Made by a program: the position numbers and the translations under genes
The notes under the pieces: model-generated
Told to the model about the DNA's origin: nothing
The model's input: only the letters and a program-made list of their open reading frames with translations
Databases searched by the model: none
Shown here: one piece after another, positions 3,440 through 57,594 of the stretch
How the letters are laid out: every line of letters begins with the position of its first letter
Numbering within the stretch: position 1 is the stretch's first letter
NCBI RefSeq assembly: GCF_003589595.1
Contig: NW_020654229.1
Location: forward strand, 5,176,987 to 5,240,986
Direction: 5' to 3'
Source of the DNA: Hyposmocoma kahamanoa
Taxonomy: Eukaryota > Arthropoda > Insecta > Lepidoptera > Cosmopterigidae
Length of the DNA stretch: 64,000 nt

Positions 3440-3852
3440 GCGGCATTATATGTTGGCTTTAACAAAACGGATTGAAACCATCCAACTTTAAATGTACCGA
3501 AACCAAGGACTACCCTTACGGTCTGTAGACAGGCGAGGGAAGCACTCCCAACGCTCAATGCCAGTCTATCTCGAATATTTATTAAACTCAAAAGGCAAGA
3601 GCTTCGCACTCTAACTGCCGCCCTAACGGGTCATGGTCCATACAATAAACACCTTTTCAATTTAGGTATCACGGACAGCCCTCTATGCAGAGCGTGCATG
3701 GAGGGGGAGGAAACGGCTGCGCACATCCTACTACTGTGCAAACTACAGGGCAAAGTACCTTGGAGTGCCAAGATCGCTCCCCGAAGTCTTCAGCAAACCG
3801 AGGAGGCTGCTGAGATTCCTGGAGGAGCTTGGGTGGCACGAGTAGGACCCTG
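3440..3852 (+). pseudogene. LINE ORF2 C-terminal remnant (zinc-knuckle end)
   Basis: The plus strand encodes LTGHGPYNKHLFNLGI followed by a C-x2-C...H-x4-C pattern (LCRACMEGEETAAHILLLC), the cysteine-histidine tail that follows the RNase H-like region in jockey/R1-type ORF2 proteins. A frameshift near 3765 moves the reading frame: the next matching peptide, LGVPRSLPEVFS...LLRFLEELGW, is in another frame. The copy is therefore 5' truncated and inactive. Confidence 0.75.
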
Positions 3853-3854
3853 CA

Positions 3855-3940
3855 CCCAACACACGCAAAATAGGCGCCTTGACGTCGAGTTGCGGACACC
3901 AGCCCGTTACACCAAGTACCAAGTACCGAAACCAACCTGT
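3855..3940 (+). repeat. Small dispersed repeat (CACGCAAAATAGGCGCC)
   Basis: An approximately 80-bp unit (CACGCAAAATAGGCGCCTTG ... CCGTTACACCAAGTACC) recurs at 42599-42676 and, shortened, at 19080-19125. Here it directly abuts the LINE remnant. Confidence 0.6.
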
Positions 3941-5086
3941 GCAAACAACCGTACCCTGATAGGTTTCTGGTGGCGATACAGGCACACTCCGGACACTCCA
4001 CACAACGCTCGAAAGTTAGTTACCTACTACTACATACAGCAAGGCGCTGTCTGCACACGCGTAAATGTGTGCGTGAAGTGGCAAGGTTACCCATCAATTT
4101 CTCGTACTATTACGTTACGTGGTCAGAGCGGCAACATAGCGAAAATTCTAGCGCGAATCTGTTATCTACAATTCTATTAATAAAATTCTTATAATTACAC
4201 ATGTTCATTAGGTATTAATATCGATATAATACTCGTATTATATTTTTCGTTAATTCACTAACTAGAATAATATTGAAGATTTATTTAAAAAATATATTGG
4301 AAGCACTTAAAATGTTATATTTTGGACAGGTACTTTTATAAGGTAACCAAGGTATTTGAAATTGCGTGTCCAAGTTCATCATTACCTAGTTAATAATTGG
4401 GTATATTCACTACGTAATATTTATCGGCAATACAAATTGAAAATTCGAGAACCCTTGGCTACTAGCTCACGAAGTTAAGGCGTCTCATTATATTGATATA
4501 ATAAATCTGTATTATGTGTTACTCTGCACTAAATAAATGAAGAAAACCATAGCTGAATGAGTCTCGGACAAATTTCATTTTACTTCCTTTGTTTCATCTT
4601 TCGGAAAACGGAAGAAACTCCTCTCTTATCTCGTTTAGATGACGATAAACAGCCGTCCACAACACAATTCACAACCGTTATAAATAGTAACATAAAATGA
4701 TGTTATATATTAACGTACAAGTTTCGTAATGAATAAAAGAAAACTATATTCAAATATCAAAGCTATTTTCGTGTTAGCACGAAAATAGCTCTCCGACAGC
4801 CTTATTGCCGTTCAGTCAATGTGCGGGGTGTGGTGCGGTATCTAAGGATAGTGAGGGGCGGAGAGAGTCCGTTCTCGTTCTTTTTTGTTCTCTGATACAG
4901 GTTTTATCTAACTTGGACGTCAATCTGTACAAATACACCACAAACAGACGCAACACCCGTGTGGTATCGCTGTTAAGGCGATTCCAATAAAAACTTTTTT
5001 GCTATATTAAGTGGTTTTGGTATTTACTATTAAATAACGTTCCTATAAAAAATACATCTGAATGTACTAATTTTTTACACGACCTT
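3941..5086. other. Unassigned stretch
   Basis: AT-rich with short non-overlapping ORFs and no recognised protein. A small hairpin (CTATTTTCGTG / CACGAAAATAG) lies at about 4762-4790. Confidence 0.4.
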
Positions 5087-12934: not shown

Positions 12935-13223
12935 TTTAAGATACGAGTTTGAGAAAGTAAGGGGACGAATTGTAACTTTTTCATTGAAAAAAAAAACCCG
13001 ACTTCAAAAGTTTGCTTTTTGACTTTTTTCCAATTTCCATGCGATCCCCTCATCAGATTACGACTTCTTAGTGACAATAGGACTGTTACGGACTCCTTTG
13101 TACATTTTATCCTTTTTTTCTGGTTGTCATGGTGACGGTCATTTGTTGATTAATATGTATTGTGTCAAGTGAAAACTCGACTTTTATTTGCGGAAAATAA
13201 ATAGTAATTTGTGACAGCCGAAA

Positions 13224-13623
13224 NNNNNNNNNNNNNNNNNNNNNNNNNNNNNNNNNNNNNNNNNNNNNNNNNNNNNNNNNNNNNNNNNNNNNNNNNNNNN
13301 NNNNNNNNNNNNNNNNNNNNNNNNNNNNNNNNNNNNNNNNNNNNNNNNNNNNNNNNNNNNNNNNNNNNNNNNNNNNNNNNNNNNNNNNNNNNNNNNNNNN
13401 NNNNNNNNNNNNNNNNNNNNNNNNNNNNNNNNNNNNNNNNNNNNNNNNNNNNNNNNNNNNNNNNNNNNNNNNNNNNNNNNNNNNNNNNNNNNNNNNNNNN
13501 NNNNNNNNNNNNNNNNNNNNNNNNNNNNNNNNNNNNNNNNNNNNNNNNNNNNNNNNNNNNNNNNNNNNNNNNNNNNNNNNNNNNNNNNNNNNNNNNNNNN
13601 NNNNNNNNNNNNNNNNNNNNNNN
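13224..13623. other. Assembly gap, 400 N
   Basis: An exactly 400-base run of N, a scaffolding gap whose true length is unknown. Any ORF drawn across it is meaningless. Confidence 1.
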
Positions 13624-14084
13624 AAAACAGCCCTTATTAAATAAAAAATAAAAATAAATTTAAAAAAATTAAAATTATTGTTGCCCTTTTAATCTTAAAT
13701 ATGTTATATTTGCAAGTAGAAAATTGTTTAGATGTCTGTAAACTATAACCAGTACATAAATTTTAATGATCTTTCACGGGAAGTGATTCGTTAAAAAAAA
13801 TGTTATGCGGGTGGATGAAGATTCCACCGCCGAGATGGAGATGGTAAACACCGCATCACCAGTCAGCCCATGACTAAAGCCAGTGCAACCTGGCCGAAAC
13901 GTCGGGAAACTAGGTAGTTGTGAAAAATACCTATTTGTATGTAAACGCGTTTATTCCCGTTTCCAAATGGTAGTAAAATGCAACGCGAAAGTTCAAAAGT
14001 TTATATAGTAATTCGTTTTTCATCAATTCTCAGAAAATAAATACTCTTTTTGAGTTCATATATTATTGTGTTAACAGTGCGAAT
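13624..14084. other. Unassigned repeat-like stretch
   Basis: A GC-richer block at about 13805-13965 (CAGTGCAACCTGGCCGAAAC, then ACGCGTTTATTCCCGTTTCC) looks like the 3' end of a dispersed element but has no second copy here. Confidence 0.35.
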
Positions 14085-21500: not shown

Positions 21501-21897
21501 ATTTCAAAATATGTGAATTTCAAGATTATACTACAGCTGAATGTAAAATTTGATTCTCTTCAAGTCAATAAAATCGTTGTTTGTGTATTGCAAGAATCAA
21601 TTAAAATATATCTATTTAACTCAAAATTTGACAATTTCTTTGTGAGCTACTTCTGGACAAAACAAGTTACTAAAAAATACGAAATTATTTTTTCTTTTTA
21701 TTTTTAAATATAATATTTCGGAAGTAGGAAATTGTTTACATGTCTGTAATAAACTTTAAACTATACATAAGTTTTTACAATATTTCTCGGCAAGCGAGTA
21801 ATTCGTTTTTCTTCGATTCTAAAAAAATATACTTTTTGACTTAATACATTATTGTATTCACAGGGCCATATATGTATATGATATGATTTGCATAATA
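21501..21897. other. Unassigned stretch
   Basis: Very AT-rich; an 80-codon ORF at 21465-21707 has low-complexity composition and no match I know. Confidence 0.35.
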
Positions 21898-25414: not shown

Positions 25415-25745
25415 CGCGCGCGATAAAATTGTAATAAGCGCGCGCTATTGGTTGTCTCAATTATATCTAATTTATCGGGTTCTTAGGTTTTCGCGATTGT
25501 TACACATAGGAAATGAAACTATCAATATAGGTCAACCGTGACCATGGGACCTGTAAAGGGCGCGAAACGTCGGTTTGTTTGAAAAAACAAATATACGCGA
25601 TTTAAATCCGGAAAAATAGTTTCATTTCCTATATCTAATTTAGATAGCCAATAGCGCGCGCTATAGGTTGTCTCAATTATATCTAATTTATATAGCCAAT
25701 AGCGCGCGCTATAGGTTGTCTCAATTATATCTAATTTATTTAAAT
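25415..25745. repeat. About 47-bp minisatellite, three units, split by FR
   Basis: Units contain AGCGCGCGCTATAGGTTGTC followed by TCAATTATATCTAATTTA. One unit lies before the FR element (25437-25474) and two after it (25643-25740). Each unit has the self-complementary AGCGCGCGCT. Confidence 0.75.
25475..25630 (-). mobile_element. FR retroposon-like element, 12-bp duplication
   Basis: It runs from TCGGGTTCTTAGGTTTTC to TAGTTTCATTTCCT. ATATCTAATTTA is present at 25463-25474 and 25631-25642. Because the site is in a tandem array, this duplication could partly be array periodicity. Confidence 0.65.
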
Positions 25746-27577: not shown

Positions 27578-28075
27578 TTTTTAACCAACTTCATAAAAGG
27601 AGGGGGTTCTCAATTCGACTGTATGTTTTTTTTGTATGTATGTTACGCGATAACACCGGTATTTGTGAACCGATTTTCATGATTCCTTTTTTGTTGGAAA
27701 GAGGGTACCTCCATAGTGGTCCCACATAACTTTGATGAAAATCATCCACCTCTAAGGTAGCCTGTTCACGTATGGAGATTCATTTTTATAAATAGCGTCT
27801 AAATTTTAATACAAGGAGCAATTATTTCAATGCTTGATTTTGCTATTCTTTCTTTAATGCAAGACGTTTTTCTCTCTCAATGTTTTTATTGAGAGAGAAA
27901 AATTAATGATTTTTATTATCTCCTGTGTCAAGTCCCGTATAGTGGCGAACTAGGGGATGAATCCGGGTTTGCGCACTTTCCGGTAACCGATTTCAATAAA
28001 ACTTGGTTATTATATGTAATTCCACGTATTTTTGAGGTCGGTTTTTTTAGTACTCTGTACTGAGATTATTTTATA
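27578..28075 (+). repeat. Family E repeat with internal insert
   Basis: An otherwise complete E copy (ACCAACTTCATAAAAGGAGG to GAGGTCGGTTTTTTTAG) interrupted at about 27763-27948 by roughly 185 bp (AGCCTGTTCACGTATGGAG ... CCGTATAGTGGCGAAC). The same insert at the same place occurs in the copy at 54912-55370. Confidence 0.8.
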
Positions 28076-28215
28076 TATATTTGGTAAGTAGGAAATTGTT
28101 TACATTGTAAGAAATTTTAACCAGTGCATAATTTTTTTAAAACCTTTCACGGTTAATTCGTTTATCAACGATTCTGAAAAGAATACACTTTTTCAGTTAA
28201 TACACTAAAATATAT

Positions 28216-28260
28216 ACTGTCTCAGTCGCCGAACGGTTACCATGCCGGACTGCCACAGCG
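28216..28260 (+). repeat. SINE A, 5' fragment left of Transib
   Basis: ACTGTCTCAGTCGCCGAACG through CCGGACTGCCACAGCG is the SINE A head; its last five bases CAGCG are the target duplication of the adjacent transposon. The other part resumes at 31168. Confidence 0.85.
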
Positions 28261-28298
28261 CACGGTGATTCACGCTCCATACTAAGGCGGTCATAAAT
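28261..28298 (+). repeat. Transib left terminal inverted repeat
   Basis: CACGGTG at 28261-28267 is followed by a 24-nt spacer and then CATAAAT at 28292. This is the end beyond the 3' end of the transposase gene. Confidence 0.8.
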
Positions 28299-28631
28299 AC
28301 GTAACTCCGAAATTATTATTATTTTTTTATTTTATTACGTTAAAATATGATTAGGTAAACGTAAATTAATAAAATTATACATTTTAAAAAATATTTGACA
28401 ATATTTAGGTGTAAAAATGTCTCGTAGTAATTTTGTTTTTAGACGATGTATCTAAAACATTTTATACTGCGACTTTTAATGGTAAAACTGTGTAAATAAT
28501 GATTATTTGTATTAACAATAACCACAAATGAATAAATTAAAACAATAAAAATACATAAAAAAGTTCATTTTACAAAATACAAACAAAACACAAATTATAC
28601 CAAAATACATTAAATCTCAACAATATTAACT

Positions 28632-30904
28632 TTAAATACATAACAAGTCTAATACAGCTTTTGACAGTACACCTTTTTTTTTAACAGGTAACTTTCGTAG
28701 ACCTGTTATGAAGGGATCTGAATGAAGAAGCAGCCTATTTACTAAATCTGTGTTGGTCACAATGCGACTCATTTTACGCGTATGATTTTTTCTAAAAGAC
28801 TTGATGTATTTGTTAGTCGCTTCAGCTGCTTCTTCAGACAACTCTCCGATTGACAACAAACCGTAATCTATAACATTAGCACCATGAATTAGAACTTTGT
28901 GAACGGAAGCAGGCATGTTATACCACGGATACTCGGCAACTAACTGCCGAGCCGTCTCTAAAGCGAACTCTTCGAAGTTCGTCTTATTAATATTATATCC
29001 CGAATTTAAACATTGAAGGATGATCCAGCAACGATCTAGGAGATCCTTCTTGATCCCAGTAATTTCAGCGGAAATTTCTGAATTCGAGAAAAACCGCCTG
29101 GCTGTATTACCATCGTTTGATGTTCCGCTTCCGCCACTTTTAGGCTTATCCACTATAAGCCCTAATCTTTCTCTAAATTGAGTCTGAACATATGATTTTT
29201 TTGCAGCAACAAGCATTTTGTCATTAGCGGACCTAGCTTGCCATTTCCTAACATCTAACTTGTACGCGACATGAACAAAATATTCAAAAAAACGTATTAA
29301 CGCGTGAAGAGGTGATAAACCAAATTCATATTTACTCTCATCGACTTCCTTATTTAAACATTCGTCAATTTTGTTCATTTCACTGGGCAAGGCGTTACAA
29401 ATAAAACATTTTGATGAAGAAACACCACTAAGTGCATTACACACTTTACCATCTACCATAGTAAGTTGCAAACAATGAGTAATGCGATATTCGCGATCTT
29501 CTTCCTTGAAAACAGTAGGCTGCAAGTTCCTTATTTTATCTTTAAAATGAGCTTCTTCCTCAACTGACTCTGCAGTCGATTCCTTCAAATATCGGAGGCG
29601 TATAGGACGACAGTATCGAGTTGATGAAGGACGAGGATTTTTCCACAAAACTACTGAATTTTCTTTGTTATCTGTTGTCAAAACAAGCTGAAGTGGCACA
29701 TACGAAGTAACAAACAGGCTACTGTCTTCAAGAGTAGAGTCAGAAAAACACTGTTTATATTCTGAATGCTCTGTACTGCCATCGAAACCCCATTTCCCTA
29801 TCAAAGATATCTTATCTAGAGACTCATTAGGTACACTATCCAAAACATCTTTTTGAGACTTGAGAATCCGATTGGCAGTATGATCTAATAAACTTTGAAG
29901 TTCGACTTCGGCGGATGATTCTGTAACAGTAATATCTGAAGGATAACAGTGTTTTTTAGATTCCACGACACTTTGGTAAGATGGGAAAATGGTTTTTGAA
30001 AACTTATTGTCTATAAATTTCTTTACTAATATATATTGATGTCGAGTTAACTGAGCTTCAACAATGAGCGATAAAACTTCGCTAGAATCGATTTCAGGAC
30101 AAGACAAGCTATCGGACGCATTGAGCAATGACTGTACAAGAGAAGGGTCTTGGTTAGACAAACTAGCCAATCTTCTCCTTTTTGTACGTTTACTGGTGTC
30201 GTCAAAGTTAATTCTCGGACGGCCATGCGATGAAGAAGTTGATGGTTTAACTTCGTCAAAGCTCTGAGATACACGTAACTCAGTTCGCTGTACATCAATA
30301 TTTTCAACGACATGCAGCCAATCTGAATATTTTTTTAAGAATTTAGATCTAGTACGATTCGACTTTGCTCAGTAGTGGGAAATTCGTTTACAAATATTCT
30401 TAATTTTAAGGCTTAAAGTCTCTAAATCAATATTTTCGATGTCGTCAGAAAGGGATGATGTTTCGGTCAAAGTGCTCAGGAGGTGTTGCATTTTTTCATT
30501 TGGATTACCCACTTTAGAGTGCCAAATATCAAAAATTGTCATCCTCGATACAGAACATTTGAAAAATGTACCTAAAACAATATGAAAGCTGAACTTAAAA
30601 AAAAATTAAAAATTCAATACTATGGACATGCATACTTTGACACCCCTTTAAGCCAAGAAGAGGCAGCAAGATGCAAATGAAACTTATAGCTCTTAATAAG
30701 GACATACTCCTTATTCAAAAACCATATACCTCAGGTGCAGCTCAGCGCAGCCAAAAGTTGTAGGTCTAAAGGAAATTAAGTTATGCCAAAAATTTTCACC
30801 AAAAAACTGCCTTCAATAAAAAAATTATATAAAAAAAATATGCATACAAAAAAAATTAAAAAAAATTGATAATAAAAGTACATACCATGCTCTTGGATCT
30901 CCAT
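28632..30904 (-). pseudogene. Transib transposase (RAG1-core-like), one in-frame TGA
   Basis: This is a cut-and-paste transposase homologous to the RAG1 catalytic core. A continuous minus frame runs from 30571 down to TAA at 28632-28634. A likely short first exon (ATG at 30902-30904, donor CATG|GTATGT at 30886) joins in frame across a 314-bp intron to an acceptor TTGTTTTAG|GT at 30571, giving about 652 codons. If the intron is not used, the first ATG in the open frame is at 30540-30542. Numbering from codon 1 = TTG at 30170, the N-part has GRPRINFDD and RTKRRR basic motifs, then LTRHQY, FPSYQSV and HCYP. D130 (KWGFDGS), D240 (MVDGKV) and E450 (SEEAAEATNK) align by eye with RAG1 D600, D708 and E962. 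C255/C258 (CFIC) and H424/H429 (HKVLIH) match the RAG1 zinc site C727/C730/H937/H942. GGSGTSNDGNTARRFF is typical of Transib. The only lesion seen is TGA at 30369-30371 (between ISHY and AKSNR), probably a mutated Trp codon. Whether read-through occurs is unknown. Confidence 0.9.
30572..30885 (-). other. Predicted intron in the Transib transposase gene
   Basis: The donor is GTATGT after CATG and the acceptor is CATATTGTTTTAG. Splicing keeps the downstream frame open (EHG|TFFKCSV). The interval itself is AT-rich with stops in the frame. Confidence 0.5.
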
Positions 30905-31139
30905 GCTTTCACAACACGTAAACACTTGATTTGGAATAGTGACACTCAAAAACAAAGTGATTAAGTTTCGATGACTCACACGTGGTGATAATTAGTCTCG
31001 CAATGCGATCACTTCCGATGCACAAAAGTGAATGATAACGTGACCTAATTACATTGATATTTATAGTTTTTGGAAGCTTGTTAACTAGTTACTAACTTAG
31101 TGAGTTGATCTAACCGGGATAAGCCAATGATTTTTTTTG

Positions 31140-31167
31140 ATTTATGGCCTATGGGGGAATCACAGTG
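31140..31167 (-). repeat. Transib right terminal inverted repeat
   Basis: Reading inwards, CACTGTG is followed by a 14-nt spacer and then CATAAAT. This is the end upstream of the transposase gene. Confidence 0.8.
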
Positions 31168-31345
31168 CAGCGGTCCCAGGTTGGATTCCCGGGCCGGGAG
31201 AAGTATCTGTATGGCCTACATTAATTTCTCTCGTGAGTTTGGGTGTAATTTGTGGTTGTCTATGTGTGTGCCCATGACTCTCGCGACACAGGGTTTCCCT
31301 AGTGCTGGACTATGTTGAGTATATGCGTTATTTTTATTATTATGT
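31168..31345 (+). repeat. SINE A, 3' fragment right of Transib
   Basis: CAGCGGTCCCAGGTTGGATT, then ATTTCTCTCGTGAGTTTGGG to TGAGTATATGCGTTATTTTT continue the SINE broken at 28260. Rejoined across the transposon with one CAGCG, the SINE is continuous. Confidence 0.9.
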
Positions 31346-31369
31346 GGAACAATAAATTTTGCATGCTTT

Positions 31370-31680
31370 TTTTTATAACATCAAGTGACGGGACGAACAA
31401 GTCATGCGCCTGATAGTAAGGTACACGCCTGTCCATGACAATTACAGTGCCACTCAGAGCTTTAAATTGCAAGATCTGAGGGGCACTGCCGCTGCGCCCG
31501 TCACCCCTGAGACGTAAGTTGACAAGTCCCATGTGCCTGTAATTTCACCAGCACTCTTACCCTTCTAAACCGGAACACAGTAATCCTGACATTACTGCTT
31601 GGCGGCTGAAATAGATAAGGTGGCAGTACTTCCCTGGACGAACTCTTTCACAAGAAGCTCTACTGCTACTAAATTCTATA
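31370..31680 (-). repeat. Family C repeat, full length
   Basis: It runs from the T-run/ATAACATCAAGTGACGGGACG end to AGAAGCTCTACTGCTAC, about 305 bp, one of the best copies for defining the family. Confidence 0.85.
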
Positions 31681-34775: not shown

Positions 34776-34945
34776 GCTGCCTCCGTGGCCGAACGGTTGC
34801 CATGCGGGACTGCCACGCAGAGAACGCAGGTTCGATTTTCGGGCCAGGAGAAATATTAGTATGACCTACATTTATTTCTCTCGTAAGGCACCCGCGACAC
34901 AGGGTTTCCCTAGTGCGGGGCTATGTTGAATGTGTGACTCCTCAT
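34776..34945 (+). repeat. SINE A with internal deletion
   Basis: CTGCCTCCGTGGCCGAACGG, GGTTCGATTTTCGGGCC, then TCTCTCGTAAGGCACCCGCG skips the GTTTGGGTGTAATTTGTGG block. Confidence 0.8.
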
Positions 34946-38358: not shown

Positions 38359-38477
38359 ATTGCCAAAAAGTGATTAAAAACTTTGATGAAAGAATCGACA
38401 TCTGTAACTGTCGTGGTGGAAATTTATCAGATATCATTTTTCATTTACTTAGACACACATTTTTCATTTATTTATTT

Positions 38478-40839: not shown

Positions 40840-41262
40840 CCCGACCCGACCCGCACCCGCTCTCTGTGTGTTTCACGTTTAAGTCCGTGTATTTATATGG
40901 ACGTCAACACGCCGAGAGCGGGCACGTGTGCCCATCCCCCGGCCGTGCGCAGTGTGTTGTCGTCCATACAAAAACAAAGAATTCGGCCCGCCGCGGTCAC
41001 GACCCGACCCGTACCCACTCTCTGTGTATTCACATATTAGACCCGCCGCGGTCCCGACCCGACCCGCACCCACTGTCTGTGTATGTCACGCATTAGACCC
41101 GCCGCGGTCACGACCCGACCCGCGCCCGCTCTCTGTGTATTTCACGCATTAGACCCGCCGCGGTCCCGACGCGATCCTCACCCACTCGCTGTGCATTTCA
41201 CGCATTAGACCCGCCGCGGTTCCGACCCGACCCGCACCCACTATCTGTTTATTTAAGGTATT
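40840..41262 (+). repeat. GC-rich minisatellite, about 56-bp unit
   Basis: Five units starting CCCGCCGCGGTCCCGACCCG lie at 40987, 41042, 41098, 41154 and 41210; a looser unit begins at about 40842. Units contain CTCTGTGTATTTCACG and ACGCATTAGA. The proline/arginine-rich ORFs on both strands are by-products of the repeat. The GC content is far above the surroundings. Confidence 0.85.
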
Positions 41263-46165: not shown

Positions 46166-46615
46166 CGTCTTTTGATTTCGATTAAACGTTCCGGTATATG
46201 TTGCCAGCGTTTCATATGAACGTTGTTATCATAATTCAGTCTTTTTTAGCGTCATAAATGTATTTAATTTGAAAAAAGATTGGCTTCAGTCGTCTTTTGA
46301 TTTCGATTAAACATTCCGATATATGTGGCCAGAGTTTCATATGAACGTTGTTATCATAATTCAGCATTTTTTTAGCGTCATAAATGTATTTAATTTGAAA
46401 AAAGAATGGCTTCAGTCGTCTTTTGATTTTGATTAAACATTCCGATATATGTGGCCAGAGTTTCATATGAACGTTGTTATCATAATTCAGCTTTTATAGC
46501 GTTATAAATGTATTTAATTTGAAAAAAGAATGACTTCAATCGTCTTTTGATTTCGATTAAACGTTCCGGTATATGTGGCCAGAGTTTCATAATTATGAAC
46601 GTTGTTGACTTATAA
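46166..46615 (-). repeat. Tandem array, about 125-bp unit, 3.6 units
   Basis: Units begin CGTCTTTTGATTTCGATTAA at 46166, 46291, 46417 and 46541 (spacings 125, 126, 124). On the minus strand the units translate to a repeated peptide such as MKLWPHISECLIEIKRR; the 126-bp unit keeps frame across two repeats. The frame continues leftwards as MKRWQHIPERLIEIKRRF. I do not recognise the peptide. Confidence 0.85.
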
Positions 46616-48605: not shown

Positions 48606-48886
48606 TATATATACATTTTTAATTTGAAGACTAAATTGCTGTTTAAACGAGATAAAGATTAAGATATGCGTAATAATATCCATGGCTTTAGTAAGGCAAC
48701 ATCGATCGTTAGTAATTGAATGAATGAATTTGCCATCACTGCCATTCCATTGAGGCACCGGCACGCGATGATGGCCGTTTTGACGTTTGTCCGCTCATCA
48801 ATCAAGTTTCGTATTAATTCATAAACTATGCTGACATCCAAATAAGTATCCCCAAAAAACCTTGGTTTTTTAACCTTAAAGGATTC
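48606..48886. other. Unassigned stretch
   Basis: A 96-codon minus ORF at 48659-48949 has no recognised match. TTTCGTATTAATTCATAA at about 48806 is shared with the repeat pair at 49380 and 53870. Confidence 0.35.
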
Positions 48887-49177
48887 AGTAAATCTGTAAC
48901 TTCTACGATATGCCGACTTCGCCTTGGTCATGCCTGCACCCCGGTCCATCTGGCAAAACTTAGAATACGGGATAACTCAATTTGTGAATGTGGCCTAGAT
49001 GAAGGTACCCCAGGCCATATATTTTTCAGCTGCCCTTCCAGAACTTGTTCCATCTACGATAGTCTTCCACCGTCCATTCCGCGTCCCGTAAATTTCCAGT
49101 TTCTGCTATATGTCTTTTCAAATCCCCTTCTGAAATTAATTACTGATTTTATTAGTATTAACAAACTTAAATTATAA
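48887..49177 (+). pseudogene. LINE ORF2 C-terminus (jockey type), open frame
   Basis: An uninterrupted 96-codon frame without an ATG at its start reads TICRLRLGHACTPVHLAKLR, ICECGLDEGTPGHIFFSCP, then SFPNPLLKL-like sequence and TAA at 49175-49177. R-L-R-L-G-H...C-x-C-G...G-T-x-x-H-I-x-F-x-C-P is the jockey-clade ORF2 end after the reverse transcriptase. Upstream the match is lost within about 40 bp, a 5' truncation. Confidence 0.8.
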
Positions 49178-52667: not shown

Positions 52668-53000
52668 TACAAAGATCGAACACTCGGAAAAAACACTCAG
52701 AAAAAATTCCTTCGATCCGGTCGGATTCGAACCGACGTCTTCTTGCATACCGTGCCAGACGCTATACCAACTAAGCCACGGAACGAACCAACGGACCTCA
52801 CGAATTTTTCTATGTGCTTGCGTCGTGTCTTTGTACTTGGTTTTTCAACGACTTTTTAGTCGTAGCGCCATCTATGAGAAATCTTTGACAGATTTAATAC
52901 CCAGTTAGTACCTTTACAGCTACCAGTCCTGGCGAGAGATGTCGCTATTCACTGTATTAATTAAATTTTTATTGAATTGATATTCAATTATTTTTTGTGA
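52668..53000 (-). repeat. SINE B, full unit
   Basis: Minus-strand B box GGTTCGAATCCGACCGG, A box TGGCTTAGTTGG, TAGATGGCGCTACGAC and GAATATCAATTCAATAAAAA. Tail ATTAATACAAAGATCGAACA. Confidence 0.85.
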
Positions 53001-55839: not shown

Positions 55840-56345
55840 GACACGACAACAAACTCATAGAAAAATATGTGAGTTCCGCTGATTCGTTCCGTGACTTAGT
55901 TGGTATAGCGTTCTGGCATGCTAGAAGACGTCGGTTCGAGTCCGGCCGGATCGAAGGAATTTTTTCTGAGTGTTCGATCTTTGTATTAATAATTATAACA
56001 AGCTAATGGAGTAATTTCACATATAAAAGAATTGAATATCAATTCAATACAAATTTAAATACAATGAATAGCGACATCTCTAACCAGGGCTGGTAGTTGT
56101 AAAGGTGTCTAACTGGGTGACGAAATACTTAAGATTTCTCATAGATGGCGCTACGGCTAAAAAGTCGTTGAAAAAACCAAATACAAAGACACGACAACAA
56201 ACACATAGAAAAATTCGTTTAGTCAGCTGGTTCGTTCCGTGGCTTAGTTGGTACAGCGTCTGGCACGGTATGCTAGACGTCGGTTCGAATACGGCGGAAT
56301 TGAAGAATTTTTTTCTGAGTGGTCGATCTTTGTATTAATAATTAT
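55840..56345 (+). repeat. SINE B tandem dimer
   Basis: Two tRNA-like cores (A/B boxes near 55895/55933 and 56239/56282) each end in GATCTTTGTATTAATAATTA. Between them is the CTAATGGAGTAATTTCAC ... CACATAGAAAAATTCGT body. The unit length is about 350 bp. Confidence 0.8.
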
Positions 56346-56795
56346 GACAAAAGGAAGCTTAGAATGAATATGAATTAATAGACAAAAATAAAGAATAATG
56401 TTGGAATCGGTTTCATTGAGTCAATAAGTATTACGTAATAAGTACGTATTTGCTATAGGTTTTGACGCTTGCCTTGTAGAACACCTTCAGCCCACAGATA
56501 GGATTGTAATTCTAGTCACGAACAAGTCTGAACCACTCCTCAAAGATACCGTAAAAGGCTCTAATCTAAATAGGCAGCTCAACTAGTCTGAGCACTTCAA
56601 TCACTTATCAATTTAGATCTATGAATTTAAAAAATAATAATATTATCTATGACGAATGTAATTAAAAATCAATTATGATATATTCTGGTGCGGTATTTTT
56701 TACTTATTTACACGTAAGGTATAGATTCAGGAGCTTTTGTTGCTATGGTAATAATAAGATCGTGGTCAATTAACATATATTTTCTATTGTTACAG
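56346..56795. other. Unassigned, probably intron of the next gene
   Basis: AT-rich sequence ending in the polypyrimidine acceptor TTTTCTATTGTTACAG at 56780-56795. Confidence 0.45.
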
Positions 56796-57437
56796 ATTTA
56801 CAATTCGGCACCCAGACACGCTCCCTGGGGGACTTCCAAAACGTGTCATCTAATCACCCGTCTGGCGACACAAATTCCAACATCATCACATCCCACCAAT
56901 CCTCCGCCTCCCATTCCACACAACGCACCCCACCACAATCCCCACAAAATAATAAAAACAATGAAGAACCGTTAGTAGCCTTGCCAAAAGCCTTGGTCAA
57001 ATCCGAAGACGATTTTGACGTAAACGAGTACTTCGCAAGACTTCACGGTACGAGATATGTCAGTGCGCCTCTAAATAGTTCTTTGAAAGAAGATCAAAAT
57101 GCGAATTTGGAGGCAACAGACGAAAATTTAGAAGAAATTAACCTAAACGAACCTGAAAAACCAACCGATGTACCGCAAAGTTTGACTGCTGACATCGCAC
57201 AAAACTTTTCGCAGCTACCCACAGTATTACCTCAAGTTGCAAGTGCGGTATTTAGTTCATTTTCAAATATGCTGAGTTTGAAGAGTCGTGATCAGACTCC
57301 CGATGACGTGAAGAATACTTCAGGATATCAAGATGTGCAGTTTGAAAGGCCTGGCAGTACAGTGACTTCAATGCCCATGATGGATGATTTTAGAGTTAAA
57401 GAATTACTGCCACCACCAAAGGAACCGCCTGTTACTG
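56796..57437 (+). CDS. Internal exon of an unidentified host gene
   Basis: A 642-bp open exon is bounded by an acceptor (TTGTTACAG) and a consensus donor (ACTG|GTAAGT). It starts with the last two bases of a split codon and ends with one base of the next. The peptide is low-complexity at first (Ser, His, Gln, Pro, Asn), then contains DFDVNEYFARLHGTRYVSAP, a Glu/Asn/Leu-rich acidic part, QLPTVLPQVASAVFSSFSNM and finally DDFRVKELLPPPKEPPVTG. It is largely disordered, with no catalytic motif. The short hydrophobic VASAVFSSFSNML helix and the proline-rich end faintly recall N-terminal regions of SEC23-interacting phospholipase proteins (SEC23IP/PAPLA1), but I cannot confirm this. Codon use, splice phase and lack of stops make it the best host coding exon in the window. 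Neighbouring exons were not found. Confidence 0.7.
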
Positions 57438-57594
57438 GTAAGTGGTTTATATTTTTTCTTTCCTACACTACTTTTAGTCTAGTGACTAAAGAACATACAA
57501 CAATTATAAAGAAATAATTTAAAGCTTGCAAAAAAAATTGTTTCAAAAATTCTATGCCCTCAAATTCTGGAAGCGAAACGAGCTTTATTTTTTA
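57438..57594. other. Start of following intron
   Basis: GTAAGT donor then AT-rich sequence. The intron continues beyond the repeats that follow; no acceptor-exon pair was identified to the window end. Confidence 0.45.

Follow-up and report, generated by a model that had tools for sequence, protein, structure and literature searches.

A Transib-type transposon copy with an interrupted transposase gene inside a SINE-like repeat of Hyposmocoma kahamanoa

We analyzed a 64,000-nucleotide stretch of DNA, here called the window, from the lepidopteran Hyposmocoma kahamanoa (contig NW_020654229.1, positions 5,176,987 to 5,240,986 of the forward strand). At positions 28261 to 31167 of the window lies a 2,907-bp element with inverted ends, flanking target-site duplications and a transposase gene on the minus strand, set within a dispersed repeat that resembles a short interspersed nuclear element (SINE). 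Its features point strongly to the Transib superfamily of transposons. Transib is the family of origin of the enzyme that assembles antibody genes.

The pentamer CAGCG stands at 28256–28260 and again at 31168–31172, and directly inside the two copies are the heptamers CACGGTG (28261–28267) and CACAGTG (31161–31167; CACTGTG when read inward). A preliminary description of this DNA had claimed CAGCG duplications and CACNGTG ends, and both are present, the duplications at exactly the coordinates it gave. The terminal inverted repeats (TIRs) are CACGGTGATTC on the left (28261–28271, plus strand, on the 3′ side of the transposase gene) and CACTGTGATTC on the right (31157–31167, minus strand, on the 5′ side). 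Read inward, the two ends agree at 10 of 11 bases and at 12 of 15, after which the likeness fades to 19 of 40. The 11-mer CACNGTGATTC, with up to one mismatch allowed, occurs at two sites in the 64 kb, and these are the two element ends, both with zero mismatches; shuffled sequence gives a mean of 2.71 such matches, and therefore it is the placement of the 11-mer, not its count, that is informative. For two fixed places, the chance of an identical pentamer is 1 in 1,024. Transib-type inverted ends begin with CAC and resemble the heptamer of a recombination signal sequence (RSS), as do CACGGTG and CACTGTG; a GC-rich 5-bp target-site duplication, found here as the two CAGCG copies, is given as a trait of the superfamily in passages of PMC7204232 and PMC8289069. 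Neither repeat comparison nor the CACNGTGATTC search found a further element copy with the same ends in the window.

The transposase frame occupies 28632–30542 on the minus strand (636 codons and a stop, with its ATG at 30542) and is interrupted by an in-frame stop at codon 58 (30369–30371). After codon 58, the frame remains open for 578 codons, a run with a chance of about 1e-19 at this base composition and the longest frame in the window, where the second longest has 247. Alignment with the solved transposase of Helicoverpa zea, HzTransib (PDB 6pqn), and a like check in relatives show the entire catalytic triad, D254 (29781–29783), D364 (29451–29453) and E574 (28821–28823), together with the CxxC zinc ligands C379 and C382 of ZnC2 (29397–29408) and the HxxxxH ligands H548 and H553 of ZnH2 (28884–28901), all encoded on the minus strand. 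The earlier claim of a frame with the three acidic residues and C2H2 zinc ligands of the RAG1 core is borne out at every position. The description of the element as nearly intact, with an almost complete gene, stands for both ends and the 636-codon frame and fails at the one in-frame stop. There is no methionine from the stop to residue 362, and ordinary translation of this copy would consequently yield 57 residues. Because of the stop, the window copy probably makes no full transposase now, while its kept ends could still be used by the enzyme of an intact relative, which would give mobility in trans. Between the element ends, on both strands, there is no other frame of at least 100 codons; three frames of 67 to 88 codons are the only others above 60. 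The element is thus a single gene without a RAG2-like partner, as in Transib, and lacks the convergent RAG2-like gene that characterizes RAGL elements such as ProtoRAG.

The best sequence match of the transposase is HzTransib and the next is amphioxus RAG1L; among structures, HzTransib again ranks first and RAG1 next, with the P element and Hermes far lower. The search for Transib and RAG1 that the preliminary description had called for therefore places the protein with Transib/RAG1 and with no other DDE superfamily. When the stretches on either side of the stop were scanned separately, Pfam returned nothing but matches below cut-off. HzTransib (PDB 6pqn, 6pqr, 6pqu, 6pqx, 6pqy and 6pr5) is about 40% identical to the window transposase by structural alignment, but its element is longer, at 3,518 bp, and has long TIRs, where the window element has 2,907 bp and a TIR of 11 bp. 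At the N terminus, the family of the window transposase extends about 140 residues beyond the solved HzTransib chain, and this extension includes a GRP motif. Vertebrate RAG1 and the amphioxus RAG1L of ProtoRAG share with the window transposase the DDE core, the CxxC/HxxxxH zinc site and the DDBD-PreRNH-RNH fold at 13–18% identity in structural alignments; ProtoRAG differs in having its RAG2-like partner.

In one search, with 7,990 candidates scored, at least 1,129 relatives of the protein reached E ≤ 0.001, and 120 of them were listed. Organism names are attached to 10 of the 120, and all ten belong to insects. Alignment A1 combined 16 of the listed relatives with the window transposase; alignment A2 held 48, hand-picked after a scan for the GRP motif and mostly GRP-positive; one further analysis took in 76. 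In a tree of 49 rows (48 listed relatives and the window transposase), the window protein and P0001, a protein from a read assembly, form a pair (support 100/100) nested in a group of read-assembly proteins. Of the rows with an organism name, those from Drosophila are nearest, and the tree's sole named moth row, Amyelois, sits in a distant branch. The closest organism-named relative among the 120 listed, a Transib-like protein of Drosophila ananassae (LOC123257406, P0022), shows 60% identity over 94% of the query and falls in another well-supported branch. At the fourth position after D254, all 48 relatives in A2 share one residue, and the window copy has a different one.

In an alignment of 637 columns, P0001 (contig of 2,580 bp) and the window transposase differ at six residues, counting the stop, and have one gap column; the P0001 frame is uninterrupted where the window copy stops at codon 58. 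By protein sequence, P0001 belongs to the same family as the window transposase and probably comes from the same or a sister species. Since six residue differences and one gap are all that separate the two, intact copies of the family exist, and the window copy is, in protein terms, young. The contigs of four further relatives, P0002 to P0005, measure 2,931–3,199 bp and probably include both ends of their elements.

A separate observation concerns the second catalytic aspartate, which is replaced by asparagine (TMINGK for TMVDGK) in six relatives (P0031, P0037, P0041, P0043, P0044 and P0107). Asparagine occupies this position in 5 of the 48 rows of A2, and a pattern search of the 120 gave 102 with D, six with N, one false match and 11 unmatched. 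The asparagine-bearing relatives are not confined to one branch, so some of them may be Transib proteins that are inactive or repurposed.

The two flanks of the element form one dispersed SINE-like repeat, 47 bases of which precede the element (28210–28256) and 175 follow it (31167–31341). On the plus strand, the left part (28210–28260) ends in the left CAGCG and the right part (31168–31341) begins with the right one. In BLAST comparisons, the two flank matches are directly adjacent in the SINE-like copies at 38474, 19852 and 21492 (minus strand); in the copy at 34777 they lie 10 divergent bases apart, the same ten that failed to align. Among nine aligned SINE-like copies, the four in which BLAST finds both halves have no comparable interruption. 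The order of events is thereby set, with the SINE-like repeat first and Transib second. Letters resembling A and B boxes hint at a tRNA origin for the repeat, but a search of a SINE-like copy against RNA families gave no match at E ≤ 1 and did not confirm it. To the left of the repeat, 28056–28207 partially matches 21698–21851 (75.6% over 156 columns), which also lies beside a SINE copy, and the two pieces with their adjoining SINE copies may be parts of a larger shared repeat. After the SINE-like repeat comes a second dispersed repeat (31367–31572), which is matched at more than 15 further sites in the window.

Taking these features together, we assign a probability of roughly 97% to the element being a copy of a Transib-superfamily cut-and-paste DNA transposon, kin of RAG1, that inserted into a pre-existing SINE-like repeat. 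During such an insertion, transposase from an intact copy would bind both element ends, nick beside CAC and then form hairpins on the flanking DNA. The excised element would be joined to a GC-rich target at staggered positions 5 bp apart, and host gap repair would produce the two CAGCG copies. The stop at codon 58 would have been acquired after, or at, insertion.

Several observations weigh against this assignment. The Pfam RAG1 model scores the transposase at 21.6 bits, where 25 would be needed to pass its cut-off. No second copy with readable ends emerged when viral contigs were scanned by protein and by pattern, and genome contigs by protein. In viral contigs, the single transposase gave seven stretches that fit the pattern and A1 gave 119, with no relative in either case, and each of two scans with the end patterns had zero matches; in genome contigs, A1 gave 40 stretches and again no relative. 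Finally, when the flanks are joined with a single CAGCG, the resulting site falls 2 bp short of the other SINE-like copies, and one CAGCG base differs from them. The match of the empty site to the SINE-like copies, which are paralogous copies within the window and not the orthologous locus, is close and not perfect. The deviating base was most likely already present before insertion, because both CAGCG copies carry it, while the 2-bp shortfall may predate or postdate the insertion. The split SINE, put forward earlier as a built-in empty-site test, therefore delivers a real break, with adjacent halves in paralogous copies, but with these two deviations. Against those copies, CAGCG and the break still correspond to an insertion.

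We now turn to how the ends are recognized. In RAG systems, a heptamer is followed by a nonamer at a spacer of 12 or 23 bp. The window transposase contains a GRPR motif (residue 107, first codon 30222–30224, minus strand) that a profile aligns with GGRPR of the RAG1 nonamer-binding domain (NBD), in order with the other matched RAG1 stretches; by itself this match is weak (8.1–10.4 bits with three RAG1 alignments). A GRP-type pattern occurs in 85 of the 120 listed relatives, and the other 35 include pieces without the region and rows where the motif varies. In A2, G and R are kept in 48 of 48 and P in 47 of 48, values biased upward by the choice of GRP-positive rows. The solved HzTransib chain starts after the motif. 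Ahead of it, residues 1–80 (30303–30542, minus strand) form a helical N-terminal part, modeled with high confidence in P0001 (predicted local distance difference test mostly 70–94); the N-terminal 80 or so residues lie outside the range of the structure comparison (149–621).

Two candidate inner binding elements of the form GGYCATAAAT stand at unequal distances from the heptamers, namely GGTCATAAAT (28289–28298, plus strand) 21 bp behind the left one and GGCCATAAAT (31140–31149, minus strand) 11 bp behind the right one, with 9 of 10 bases equal. One reading, to which we give a fairly low probability, is that the window element is an asymmetric, 12/23-like Transib whose GRP domain would read a second element at unequal heptamer distances. 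The collinear NBD alignment agrees with it. The candidate elements were, however, sought after seeing the sequence, and an equally good match turns up in 3.6% of cases when the sequence is shuffled and in 4.0% when window pieces are paired at random. A rival A-rich, nonamer-like element, AAAAAAATC (31129–31137, minus strand), which we take to be a Transib consensus nonamer, would fit symmetric ends; it lies 23 bp behind the right heptamer and matches the RSS nonamer at 7 of 9 bases, while the left end reaches 5 of 9 at that distance. Among known elements, 12/23-asymmetric Transibs are recorded in Drosophila and Anopheles in a part of PMC8355894, whereas a passage of PMC8289069 describes the majority of Transib ends, HzTransib included, as symmetric. 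Sections of PMC9435367 report a GRP-containing NBD for both Transib subgroups, ends in Subgroup II that are symmetric as well as asymmetric, and a Subgroup II defined by loss of the alpha11–alpha12 region and a type II C-terminal tail.

The wider proposition is that an insect Transib family already uses bipartite asymmetric ends, consisting of the heptamer and GGYCATAAAT with spacers of about 11 and 21 bp, one helical turn apart, and read by an RAG1-NBD-like GRP domain. We consider this unlikely. If true, it would provide, with the intact relatives, a living model for the rise of 12/23-type pairing before RAG2. If asymmetric ends were conserved in sister copies, the family, with its near-identical intact genes, would offer a way of asking whether unequal spacers can be enforced by an NBD-like domain in the absence of RAG2. 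The element and its possible end asymmetry both belong to a kind already known, since the GRP-bearing NBD and both symmetric and asymmetric Transib ends are described in the portions of PMC9435367, PMC8355894 and PMC8289069 cited above; the element adds a new member to it. The gain is one well-bounded copy, with its order of events dated, in an already well-sampled superfamily. The earlier emphasis on its value for RAG evolution was overstated as unusual, given the count of related proteins above and a Transib structure already solved.

The stop at codon 58 may be questioned as damage. The gene might instead be read through, or start at a non-ATG codon downstream. A 512-codon frame that begins with TTG at 30170 takes in everything that the HzTransib structure contains, and the 578-codon frame covers all of the HzTransib-aligned part. 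We nevertheless find this highly improbable, because methionine is missing down to residue 362 and the otherwise nearly identical P0001 is open at the position of the stop. That the locus is a domesticated, immobile RAG1-like host gene lying between repeats by chance is barely credible: it is one gene with a single long frame and retained catalytic residues, but it has matching inverted ends with an exact target duplication around them, splits a SINE-like repeat and holds a stop in its frame, none of which a conserved host gene would have.

Other features of the window lie apart from the element. An assembly gap appears as a run of N at about 13210–13640, with 400 N in the whole window, and tandem arrays occur at 40987–41254 (56-bp units), 46166–46591 (126-bp units) and 25630–25739 (48-bp units). 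The frames at 3476–4177 and 48818–49174 resemble the zinc-binding end of a reverse transcriptase of the long interspersed nuclear element (LINE) type (zf-RVT, 23.1 and 12.6 bits, below the cut-off of 27.5). ARAGORN and Rfam agree on a tRNA-Thr(GGT) gene at 52711–52786 on the minus strand, and Rfam alone reports a tRNA-like match at 55885–55954 (34 bits). A neighboring host exon at 56774–57451, whose matches mark the host as probably a moth or butterfly, finds 41 proteins, and the three with organism names come from two Lepidoptera, Scirpophaga incertulas (twice) and Leguminivora glycinivorella.
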